From Bacteroidota bacterium (GTDB taxonomy: Bacteria; Bacteroidota; Bacteroidia; JACCXN01), in assembly GCA_013696965.1 (NCBI GenBank), contig JACCXN010000033.1, forward strand, positions 1 to 7,763: DNA of 7,763 nt, given 5' to 3'. Below are positions 441 to 7,763 of the stretch, piece by piece; position 1 is the stretch's first letter, and every line of letters starts with the position of its first letter. A model generated the notes under the pieces. The model did no database searches. It was not told where the DNA came from and saw only the letters and a program-made list of their open reading frames with translations. The translations under genes and the position numbers were made by a program.

Positions 441-472
441 AGAGGGAGGGGTTAAAATAATTTTGATGTGCT
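441..472 (+). repeat. Left-flank direct repeat, copy 1
   Basis: This AG-rich stretch ends in ATAATTTTGATGTGCT (457-472) and directly precedes the first REP-like motif of the tandem array. A near-identical stretch lies at 6888-6920 on the same strand, just before the RAYT locus. It is in the same orientation at both places, although the REP-containing elements next to it point in opposite directions. Confidence 0.6.
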
Positions 473-480
473 GGGGCGTT

Positions 481-665
481 AAGGGGCGTTAGCCCTGTAT
501 TCTTCGTAGCAAAACGTATGTGTAGCAAAAAAGGGGCGTTAGCCCTGATATCTTTCCTAATCGTACCATGGGCTCAATCTGATGTCAGGGCTACGCCCCT
601 TTTTTTAAATTTTCATTGTTTTTCTACCAAGATTTTGGGGCTACGCCCCATTATTACTGTAGCAT
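481..665 (-). repeat. Tandem unit 1 (hairpins at 483-497, 533-547, 586-599, 637-649)
   Basis: The transposase 3'-end remnant lies at 550-565, the 14-nt linker at 566-579, and the arm matching the 5' flank of the transposase begins at 580. This unit is almost identical to unit 3. Confidence 0.85.
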
Positions 666-850
666 AAGGGGCGTTAGCCCTGTATTCTTCGTAGAAAAAT
701 GTATGTGTAAATAAAAAGGGGCGTAGCCCTGATATCTTTCCTAATCGTACCATAGGCTCAATCTGATGTTAGGGCTACGCCCCTTTTTTTTAAATTTTCA
801 TTGTTTTTCTACCAAGATTTTAGGGCTACGCCCCATTATTACTGTAGCAT
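666..850 (-). repeat. Tandem unit 2, the divergent copy (hairpins at 668-682, 718-731, 771-783, 822-834)
   Basis: It differs from units 1 and 3 in the spacer after the first hairpin (GTAGAAAAATGTATGTG instead of GTAGCAAAACGTATGTG), in a GTA loop in its second hairpin, and in AGGGCTACG in place of GGGGCTACG in the fourth. The remnant TACGATTAGG lies, on the minus strand, at about 740-749. Its spacer is closer to the one at the RAYT locus (7605-7620) than those of units 1 and 3. Confidence 0.8.
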
Positions 851-1024
851 AAGGGGCGTTAGCCCTGTATTCTTCGTAGCAAAACGTATGTGTAGCAAAA
901 AAGGGGCGTTAGCCCTGATATCTTTCCTAATCGTACCATGGGCTCAATCTGATGTCAGGGCTACGCCCCTGTTTTTTAAATTTTTCATTGTTTTTCTACC
1001 AAGATTTTGGGGCTACGCCCCATT
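851..1024 (-). repeat. Tandem unit 3, truncated after the last hairpin (853-867, 903-917, 956-969, 1009-1021)
   Basis: It matches unit 1 nearly base for base up to the last hairpin, then ends; the joining segment found between the other units (TTATTACTGTAGCAT) is replaced by TTGTTTTTTGCTATAATTG. The array therefore stops about 60 bp beyond the HK1 stop codon, so its hairpins would lie in the 3' untranslated part of an HK1 transcript. Confidence 0.8.
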
Positions 1025-4875: not shown

Positions 4876-4906
4876 AAAGCAGCTATGAGGCAAGTGGGGC
4901 TGCTTT
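4876..4906 (-). terminator. Hairpin at the HK2 stop, possible terminator
   Basis: AAAGCAGC (4876-4883) pairs perfectly with GCTGCTTT (4899-4906) around a 15-nt loop, overlapping the HK2 stop codon. The minus-strand sequence that follows (GAAATTTGCTATTTT) is only moderately T-rich, so intrinsic termination is plausible but not clear. Confidence 0.4.
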
Positions 4907-6434
4907 AAGAGTTGGGCTGATGGTCAGCTTTTCCAATTGGTAATGTAAAATGAAAAGTAGTTCCTTTTCCCAACTCACTTTCAACCCAAACCTTTCCTTT
5001 ATGTTTTTTAATAAAGTCTTTTACAAGAATTAAACCCAAGCCTGTAGATTTGCCCTTTTCAGGTTCTGAATTACTTATAACAGCTTCATCACTAAATAAT
5101 TTTTTGCTATCCTCGTCAGACATTCCAATACCTGTATCCTTTATTGAAACCTGGATAAACGAATTCCCTTTTTTAAGAGCAGAAACTATAATTCTGCCTC
5201 CCTTTGGAGTAAATTTGACAGAGTTAGTTACAAGGTTCTGAAAAACTGACCTTATTAAAAACGGGTCAACCCAAACCTGAAAAGATTTATCTACTTCATT
5301 AATAATTTGTATCTCTTTTTGTTTAGCATTTTCTATTATGAGTTCTGTTGACAGGGAAACTAATTCATATAAATTCCGGTTTTGAGGGTCGAAGTTTATT
5401 TTTTTTGTTTTTTGTTTTGACAACGCTACAAGTTCGTTGAGCTGATCAATAATTTTTACCGAAGCTCTGTTGATTATTTTAGTAAAATCCGAAATCATTT
5501 CCTGTTCAAGTGTTTTAGCATTTTTAATCATAATTTCAGAAGTAGAAATTATGGCAGAAACAGGATTTCTTAAATCGTGTGAAATAATAGAAATAAATTT
5601 GTCTTTAGACTTTGCGACTTCTTCAAGTTCAACATTGATTTCTTCAAGTCTGCTATATGCAGATTCTAAAACTTTAGTTCTTTCCGAAACTCTTCTTTCA
5701 AGTTCTGAATATAGCTCTTTGAGTTCTTTCTGTGCTTTTTTCTCTTCTGATATATCTAAATAAATGGCGTAAGAGCCTTTGATTTTTTTGTCAATCATAA
5801 CAGGGAATTTTACAGCCAAAACATCCATTAATTCATTCTCTTTTGTTTTTATTTTTGTCTGAAGCTGAACATATTGCCCATCGTTTACTTTTTCTGTCAT
5901 TTCTTGGTGTTCTGCAAAGTATTCTTCAGGTATAAAGGTTTGAGGCAGGGTTCTATTTTTTAATTCATCAGTAGAAAAATTGAAATTTTTTTCAAAAGTC
6001 TTATTTACTGCATTAATTTGTTCATTTCCATTTAAAAATGCAATTGCAAAAGGAGAGGAATTAAACAATTCCTCAAAAAATAGTGCAGTTGTTTCTTTTG
6101 CAAATTTTAATATGCAGTCTTTGTTTTTATATATTATATTACAAGCGGTGACTTGAAAATCAATTTTATCACTTTTTTTCTTTATATTTTGAATGAAAAA
6201 GGTTACAGTTTCTTTTTCAGGAATTCCATTTAAATTGTTTAGGATTTCGTTGATGTCTGCTCCACTAACAATATCTTTCATACTCATCGTTAGTAATTCA
6301 TTTTCAGAATAACCGAGGGTAGATGTGGCAGCCGGATTTACCTTTAAAAAATTCATATTCTCTTTTTCAATGATTATCACAGCTAAGGGAATAGTTCTAA
6401 AAAGGGTATCAAAAATATTTTCTTCCATAATCAT
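4905..6434 (-). CDS. Cytoplasmic PAS-PAS sensor histidine kinase (HK2), paralog of HK1
   Basis: A 509-residue kinase with the same plan as HK1: PAS about 6-115; PAS about 118-232 (DVLAVKFPV, GSYAIYLDIS); coiled coil about 232-278; HisKA with SHDLRNP and phosphoacceptor H286; HATPase with FQNLVTNSVKF (N400, N404), G1 DTGIG (433-437), G2 GLGL (465-468) and GTTFHFTLPIGK. The linker between its PAS domains is shorter than in HK1. No membrane segment is seen. The first ATG gives MIMEEN; the Met at residue 3 aligns better with the HK1 start and is an equally good choice. After LPIGK, where HK1 and the 2679 remnant stop, HK2 continues with ADHQPNS from unrelated sequence, which suggests a rearrangement joint at its 3' end. 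The upstream region holds a TAnnTTTG box and four CAAATGT repeats. Confidence 0.95.
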   Translation of the reverse strand: MIMEENIFDTLFRTIPLAVIIIEKENMNFLKVNPAATSTLGYSENELLTMSMKDIVSGADINEILNNLNGIPEKETVTFFIQNIKKKSDKIDFQVTACNIIYKNKDCILKFAKETTALFFEELFNSSPFAIAFLNGNEQINAVNKTFEKNFNFSTDELKNRTLPQTFIPEEYFAEHQEMTEKVNDGQYVQLQTKIKTKENELMDVLAVKFPVMIDKKIKGSYAIYLDISEEKKAQKELKELYSELERRVSERTKVLESAYSRLEEINVELEEVAKSKDKFISIISHDLRNPVSAIISTSEIMIKNAKTLEQEMISDFTKIINRASVKIIDQLNELVALSKQKTKKINFDPQNRNLYELVSLSTELIIENAKQKEIQIINEVDKSFQVWVDPFLIRSVFQNLVTNSVKFTPKGGRIIVSALKKGNSFIQVSIKDTGIGMSDEDSKKLFSDEAVISNSEPEKGKSTGLGLILVKDFIKKHKGKVWVESELGKGTTFHFTLPIGKADHQPNS

Positions 6435-6887: not shown

Positions 6888-6920
6888 AGAAGCGGAGGGT
6901 AAATATAATTTTGATGTGCT
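6888..6920 (+). repeat. Left-flank direct repeat, copy 2
   Basis: It ends in the same 16 bases, ATAATTTTGATGTGCT (6905-6920), as the copy at 441-472, with similar AG-rich sequence before it. It lies 11 bp before the first REP-like hairpin of the RAYT locus. Confidence 0.6.
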
Positions 6921-6929
6921 AAGGTATCA

Positions 6930-6977
6930 ATGGGGCGTAGCCCTAAAATCTTGGTAGAAAAACAATGGAAATTTAAA
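6930..6977 (+). repeat. Extra copy of the RAYT element 5' end
   Basis: The hairpin motif GGGGCGTAGCCCT (6932-6944) and the following spacer (AAAATCTTGGTAGAAAAACA and on to ATTTAAA) repeat almost exactly at 7024-7072, 94 bp further on, with one difference in about 49 bases. It is the left end of an older or second element whose coding part is now only the short relic that follows. Confidence 0.8.
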
Positions 6978-7019
6978 GGTAGGTTTGCCTGGCAAGAAGG
7001 ATATGGGTCATTTTCCTAA
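6978..7019 (+). pseudogene. Relic of a second RAYT transposase gene (GRFAWQEGYGSFS)
   Basis: Forty-two bases between two copies of the element 5' end translate to GRFAWQEGYGSFS and a stop. This is the conserved segment GKFSWQDGYGAFTY that precedes the catalytic tyrosine helix in the RAYT at 7108 (its DNA at 7380-7421 is similar but clearly diverged). Everything before and after it is missing. It therefore came from a different RAYT copy than the neighbouring gene, as a scar of deletion or of one element landing in another. Confidence 0.75.
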
Positions 7020-7025
7020 ATCAAT

Positions 7026-7093
7026 GGGGCGTAGCCCCAAAATCTTGGTAGAAAAACAATGGAAATTTAAAAAAAAACAGGGGCGTAGCCCTG
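7026..7093 (+). repeat. 5' REP-like hairpin pair (GTA triloop type)
   Basis: Both motifs form GGGGC/GCCCC or GGGC/GCCC stems around GTA. The second ends 14 bp before the transposase start codon, so it would lie in the leader of the mRNA or over its promoter. Confidence 0.8.
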
Positions 7094-7107
7094 ACATCAT
7101 TACAACA

Positions 7108-7571
7108 ATGGCAAATACATACACACAATTATACATCCAATTCGTTTTTTCGATACAAGGGCGGCAAAACCTAATCAAAGAATCATTCAGAGATGAATTG
7201 GAAAAAGTGATGTGTGGAATTGTTACCAACCATAAATGTAAAACATACGCAATTTATTGCAATCCAGACCATACCCATATTTTTGTGGGAATGCACCCAA
7301 CAATTTCGCCTTCTAAACTAATGGAACAAGTGAAATCGGGTTCGTCAAAATGGCTGAATGAATCCCGATAATCGGGATGGGGAAATTTTCGTGGCAAGAT
7401 GGTTATGGGGCTTTTACCTATTCAAAATCGCATATCGACAAAGTAGTGAACTATGTTTTGAACCAACCAGAACATCATAAAAAACAATCTTCCCGAGACG
7501 AATACTTGTTACTATTAAAAAAATTTGAAATTGAATATGATGCAACATATTTGTTTGAATGTTACGATTAG
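7108..7571 (+). pseudogene. REP-associated tyrosine transposase (Y1_Tnp, IS200/IS605 superfamily), frameshifted
   Basis: The first part (7108-7371, 87 codons and stop) begins MANTYTQLYIQFVFS and carries the HUH motif DHTH (H55, H57). The second part (7377-7571, 64 codons) begins MGKFSWQDGYGAFTYSKSHI and carries the catalytic tyrosine in NYVLNQPEHH (Tyr26 of that part). Together they make about 152 residues, the normal family length, so nothing large is lost. The two parts are in different frames: one base is missing or two are extra within 17 bases holding the palindrome TCCCGATAATCGGGA. The start is the ATG at 7108; an upstream TTG in the same frame would only add repeat-derived sequence. 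As written, neither half could cut and join DNA alone. The second part's ATG follows the TAA by 5 bases, so re-initiation is possible but untested. No accessory TnpB gene is present. Confidence 0.85.
7363..7377. repeat. 15-nt palindrome at the transposase break
   Basis: TCCCGAT-A-ATCGGGA is a perfect palindrome with 7-bp arms and a one-base centre. It supplies the premature TAA (7369-7371) and spans the frame change. Confidence 0.8.
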
Positions 7572-7580
7572 GAAAGATTA

Positions 7581-7643
7581 CAGGGCTAACGCCCCTTTTT
7601 ATCTACATACATTTTTCTACCAAGAATACAGGGCTAACGCCCC
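7581..7643 (-). repeat. 3' REP-like hairpin pair (TAAC tetraloop type)
   Basis: CAGGGCTAACGCCCC occurs at 7581-7595 and 7629-7643, each able to form a GGGC/GCCC stem around TAAC. They are in the opposite orientation to the 5' pair and have one more loop base. The first starts 9 bp after the transposase stop and is followed by a T run, so it might also serve as a terminator. Confidence 0.8.
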
Positions 7644-7654
7644 TTTTTTGCTAC

Positions 7655-7763
7655 GAAGAATACAGGGCTACGCCCCTTATGCTACGGTAATAATGGGGCG
7701 TAGCCCTAAAATCTCCGTAGAAAAACAACGAAAATTTAAAAAACAGGGGCGTAGCCCTGAAAT
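7655..7763 (+). mobile_element. Junction and 5' end of a further RAYT-type element, cut by the window end
   Basis: Hairpins CAGGGCTACGCCCC (7663-7676), GGGGCGTAGCCCT (7695-7707) and CAGGGGCGTAGCCCTG (7744-7759) are joined by TTATGCTACGGTAATAAT, the same joint as between the tandem units at 481-1024 (read on the other strand). The last hairpin is followed by AAAT instead of ACATCATTACAACA, so it is unclear whether a transposase gene or a deleted unit follows. Confidence 0.75.

Follow-up and report, generated by a model that had tools for sequence, protein, structure and literature searches.

The window analysed here is contig C33 in its entirety (7763 bp), from a Bacteroidota genome of 3.86 Mb in 106 contigs, and the question that it raises is how a tandem array of 185-bp units near one end is related to the transposase element near the other (Table 1). 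The first-pass annotation had taken the units for internally deleted copies of a RAYT element. In the account that we regard as likely, they are PATE/MITE-like, ends-only, non-autonomous derivatives of an IS200/IS605-family element with a subclass-1.2 transposase gene (A-type tnpA), they contain a piece of a second tnpA gene (B-type, about 50% identical to the A-type, on contigs C41 and C72), and they were tandemly multiplied. The contigs come from short reads, and the number of units is possibly miscounted.

Table 1. Features of the array and of the A-type element in the window
Feature	Position	Strand	Remarks
Unit 1	480-652	-	LE 580-652, linker 566-579, tnpA 3′ end 550-565, RE 480-549
Unit 2	653-837	-	Variant linker GATTGAGCCTATGG at 750-763
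Unit 3	838-1024	-	Linker 936-949
Extra outer LE repeat copy	6929-6977	+	Repeat search, BLAST
35-nt B-type transposase fragment, between two LE copies	6984-7018	+	35/35 identical to C72:213-247
A-type element LE	7023-7099	+	Outer and inner REP-like palindromes; relatives share the architecture
A-type tnpA, IS200/IS605-like, subclass 1.2 motifs, broken	7108-7571	+	
A-type element RE, inner and outer palindromes	7572-7645	+	
Further RE copy and junction TTATGCTACGGTAATA	7646-7691	+	Junction close to that between units of the 480-1024 array
LE of a fourth unit	7692-7763	+	Continues on C75 (C75:56-226), linker GATTGAGCCTATGG

Comparison of the 185-bp unit with its own genome by BLAST recovered the three units of the array at 95–100% identity and, in the transposase element, matches to the two unit arms at 7023-7099 (94%, E 9e-27) and 7559-7645 (89%, E 7e-26). 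An inverted-repeat search agreed with these placements, which rest on local matches; a global pairwise alignment misplaced the left arm across the large gap. The matches span hairpins, spacers and codons alike and include the coding end TACGATTAG plus GAAAGAT, while TACGATTAGGAAAGAT is present in 3/3 units and the tnpA stop codon is retained in a frame-exact context. Thus, the first-pass description of minus-strand units that match both arms of the element, together with the spacers and the last codons, stop and 3′ flank of the transposase gene, was borne out, as was the 463-bp length of the gap between the arms (7100-7562), which is replaced by 14 nt in the units. Sharing of the hairpins only, named beforehand as the outcome contrary to such a derivation, was not what the alignment gave. 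Unit 3 is predicted to fold into a single long LE/RE hairpin (-39.2 kcal/mol, z -7.0), as would be expected of inverted transposon ends, which is no proof of mobility.

The array is intergenic and lies about 60 bp beyond the 3′ end of a histidine-kinase gene. This site, together with the strong hairpin potential, would suit repeats whose likeness to transposon ends is superficial, either ordinary REP/BIME sequences or structural elements downstream of the kinase gene (e.g., transcription terminators or mRNA stabilisers). Such an origin is very improbable, however, given the tnpA codons and stop kept frame-exact, the spacers shared besides the hairpins, and the lack of copies outside the clusters of C33, C75 and C59. 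As a full account it is refuted by the tnpA-derived sequence that sits between the arms, and the units may serve a secondary function in addition. Genome-wide, there are 14 exact copies of the core GGGGCGTAGCCCTG, versus 0 for the reversed control, and all 14 cores are confined to the same three contigs, with C59 holding a third, decayed copy and the C75 repeats terminating in an LE copy. So, of the REP/BIME-like, non-autonomous character proposed in the first-pass annotation, the construction from both element ends and the tandem state stand, but the repeats are local clusters and not a dispersed REP family in this genome. As side observations, three paralogous PAS/histidine-kinase genes adjoin repeat clusters (1083-2627, 4905-6434, and L032 from about 500), the arrays lying closely 3′ of two of them, and a 16-nt flank ATAATTTTGATGTGCT stands ahead of both clusters of the window (457-472 and 6905-6920), which are then oppositely oriented.

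Concerning the transposase itself, it is of the Y1/HUH type (Pfam Y1_Tnp match). The NCBIfam IS200/IS605 model NF033573 gave 59.5–74.1 bits, above its cut-off of 55, while the model of REP-associated tyrosine transposases (NF047646) gave only 24.5–28.7 bits against a cut-off of 80, so the RAYT identity first given to the element does not hold. The motifs DHTH, SWQ and YVLNQPEHH agree with the poorly known subclass 1.2 as defined by Quentin et al., and the last of them, of the Y---Q--HH type, recurs in 40/42 intact homologues in place of the Y motif of RAYT class 2 (Y...NP). Moreover, the dispersed REP family that is usual, but not universal, in RAYT hosts was not found in this genome. Subclass 1.2 TnpA-Y1 proteins are described as having DHxH, WQ and Y---Q--HH motifs and about 150 aa, and as occurring in Bacteroidetes in few copies (Quentin et al. 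2018, PMC6006769). The present protein shares all these traits, HUH and Y---Q--HH motifs included, and by profile scores and motifs it is an IS200/IS605-family TnpA, probably of subclass 1.2, and not a RAYT. Other tnpA paralogues carry palindromes of their own types, ATCCCGTAGGGAT in L025 (C17) and CACCCCTTCGGGGT in L027/L030 (C72/C41); a distinct type per paralogue suggests cognate end sets.

Another point is the origin of the linker. The 14-mer GATTGAGCCCATGG, said to be the same in all three units, is indeed exact in units 1 and 3, but unit 2 is one base different; this CCT variant is common to unit 2 and the C75 unit. Of the linker, the final 4 nt (ATGG) correspond to the transposase 3′ end as found in relatives (GAATGGTACGATTAG), so only about 10–12 nt are foreign. 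GATTGAGCCC is present in the B-type tnpA gene, and a chance match of the linker 10-mer alone to a tnpA gene of this genome would be expected in about 3 of 1000 cases by our own estimate. For so short a stretch, the assignment relies mainly on a longer copy: the terminal LE copy of C75 runs past the linker as GATTGAGCCCATCAATGAAAATTTC, which is 24/25 identical to the B-type tnpA at C72:118-142 (genome-wide E 4e-4), and this makes the B-type source firm. This extension, together with the second B-type fragment lying perfectly conserved between two LE copies (Table 1), indicates that, within the cluster, coding DNA of the B-type became attached to A-type ends. The linker is thus a chimera, in which GATTGAGCCCAT comes from inside the B-type tnpA and is joined through a shared AT to the A-type TGGTACGATTAG; the B piece ends in the units at GATTGAGCCCAT and has AT in common with the A-type 3′ end ATGGTACGATTAG. 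Each unit is composed of A-type LE, 12 nt of B-type tnpA interior, the last codons and stop of the A-type tnpA, and A-type RE. It is not, then, the product of the plain internal deletion first supposed, since the linker is coding DNA of the B-type paralogue.

A simple internal deletion could nevertheless be conceived if a sister A-type copy had the leader GATTGAGCCC before ATGG, so that recombination between the ATGG at its start codon and that in GAATGGTAC took out the whole gene; an A-type copy with CATCAGATTGAGCCCATGGC in close relatives would be its support. The family does have ATGG at both positions, and its LE-to-ATG leaders vary in sequence while being similar in length, but 0 of about 50 leaders resemble GATTGAGCCC, and the C75 copy continues with B-type coding sequence, not with ATGGC, which makes this deletion improbable. 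We had at first taken the linker for the 5′ leader of the parent, with ATGG at its end, and gave this up in view of the B-type match. A full-length parent with the linker in its interior, proposed as the object of a search, was found neither in the assembly nor by pattern search of 395 genomes of the class, which gave no true new case of the same deletion; a pattern for the linker had 64 matches in viral contigs, 0 of them in a REP or tnpA context.

The parent can be approached through the A-type gene of the window. About five of its codons (at about 7362-7378) are replaced by a palindrome, TCCCGATAATCGGGA, that is absent elsewhere in the assembly and introduces a stop and a frameshift, and the conserved Trp codon near its end has changed from TGG to TGT. 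In intact relatives TGGTACGATTAG is the usual C-terminus (...FEWYD*; e.g., L061, L070) and TGG the usual family codon. The units retain TGG, which points to descent from an older or sister copy; the earlier suggestion of a different, related parent copy is thus supported on this count, though the linker does not stem from the interior of such a copy. Only broken A-type genes, and no intact A-type transposase, were found in the assembly, and for this reason the units are probably immobile relics now. Their ends stay paired palindromes and could be recognized by a TnpA in single-stranded form.

Besides the tandem units of the array, an equivalent unit comes after the A-type tnpA copy. Over 127 bp, the end of the window (C33:7637-7763) is identical to the start of C75 (C75:1-127); this overlap resembles a k-mer overlap of the assembler and is an assembly link that leaves adjacency unproven, C41 and C72 being likewise joined through 127 bp. 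If C75 follows C33, the tnpA copy is directly followed by a unit of the same kind, with a junction TTATGCTACnGTAATAATGGGG that is nearly that of the array. As to how the array grew, units 1 and 3 are identical at 171/173 positions and flank the divergent unit 2, which argues for multiplication by unequal exchange. TnpA acts by peel-and-paste in IS200/IS605 biology, and consistently with it the units might instead have been placed beside existing ones by transposition; TTATGCTACnGTAAT, the junction between units, is found again between tnpA and the unit after it, and the 16-nt flank precedes both clusters. Transposition into place is unlikely, although it deserves some weight: the arrangement of the three units is that predicted by recombination, and no intact A-type tnpA was found in the assembly.

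Putting these elements together, the units would have arisen within a single repeat cluster, where illegitimate joining brought B-type gene pieces onto A-type ends. At the shared dinucleotide AT, a further join would have linked the B piece with the 3′ terminus of a TGG-bearing A-type gene and deleted the rest; slippage or unequal crossing-over between the repeats of the resulting miniature element would then have multiplied it. Candidates for the parent form would be an intact A-type copy and a chimera of the two types with CATCAGATTGAGCCC in it.

Not only does the linker originate from the B-type gene, but the process recurs in relatives. Close homologues of the transposase occur across distant Bacteroidota, mostly with 80–94% identity over the N-terminal 85 residues. 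By a motif-position test (a perfect-stem hairpin test was judged too strict), each of four fixed sites flanking the gene was seen to have a REP-like motif in 31–41 of about 50 homologues, versus 0.01–0.02 expected, and tandem REP-unit arrays adjoin the gene in about 20/50. In L093, an intact tnpA is followed by two tandem units with a 276-bp period, in which the last 57 nt of the CDS (19 terminal codons, 96–98% identity) are fused to the LE hairpin. L067 has a derived unit with the last 53 nt of the CDS, L072 has 100-bp LE units with its first 18 nt, and L064 and L068 have LE units with the first tnpA codons. The cleanest parent/derivative pairs found are those of L063's genome, where the parent tnpA is intact, three mini-elements, each on a contig of its own, retain codons from the start and from the C-terminal end of the gene, and a fourth has a different deletion. 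When 395 genomes of the phylum were searched with a strict pattern for C-terminal derivatives, just two matches came up, both chance-like, so such derivatives are not common. Separately, L062:1124-1895 (Runella) has, next to an intact tnpA, a tandem series of 134–189-bp units that include LE as well as RE, possibly a further mini-element array, and L040 and L049 (G117) hold, on separate contigs, RE copies with the last tnpA codons that adjoin another repeat family. A broader conjecture is that the subclass 1.2 TnpA elements of Bacteroidota routinely make mini-elements by joining their ends to transposase-gene pieces, including those of another paralogue, perhaps through TnpA-driven single-strand joining, with some dispersing as in L063's genome. 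It is speculative and rather doubtful; if true, it would provide a live model for the rise of REPINs from IS200-like ancestors.

Concerning known systems, PATEs are ends-only derivatives of IS200/IS605 elements formed by core deletion (Haloquadratum, PMC3119063; Halanaerobium, PMC7290912), and one from Halanaerobium consists of 28 nt of LE, the last 58 nt of tnpB and RE (PMC7290912). The units fit this description: like PATEs, some of which keep C-terminal codons, they are short and transposase-less, with palindromes kept near both ends and the core gone. So, the first-pass opinion that a derivation of this kind is rarely visible holds in that the steps are unusually clear here, but ends-only PATEs had already been published. 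Unlike PATEs, the units belong to Bacteroidota and to a subclass-1.2 TnpA, have doubled palindromes at each end, stand in tandem and contain a piece of a second transposase gene. With REPINs/BIMEs and RAYTs (PMC3116915, PMC6006769) they have in common that REP-like palindromes form inverted pairs close to a gene for a Y1 transposase, and arrays in tandem are known there too; unlike in those systems, the transposase is IS200-type and fails the RAYT model, and the repeats are few and local. Typical terminal structures are generally absent from subclass 1.2 according to Quentin et al. 2018 (PMC6006769), while conserved REP-like palindromes flank most of the about 50 homologues considered here. 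A transposase group reported as generally devoid of terminal structures has, then, conserved palindromic ends, and its parent/derivative pairs are therefore open to in vitro cleavage testing. Bertels and Rainey (PMC3116915) proposed that the ends of an IS200-like ancestor gave rise to REPINs, and such an origin of REP/REPIN sequences had been mainly inferred before. In this genome and a few relatives the steps can be read, from a parent gene that is still intact, through ends that retain some of its codons, to copies in tandem and copies that are dispersed. It can be said that the units belong to the PATE kind and illustrate the REPIN-origin proposal, and that what distinguishes them is their chimeric interior, their tandem state and a subclass-1.2 transposase with conserved ends.
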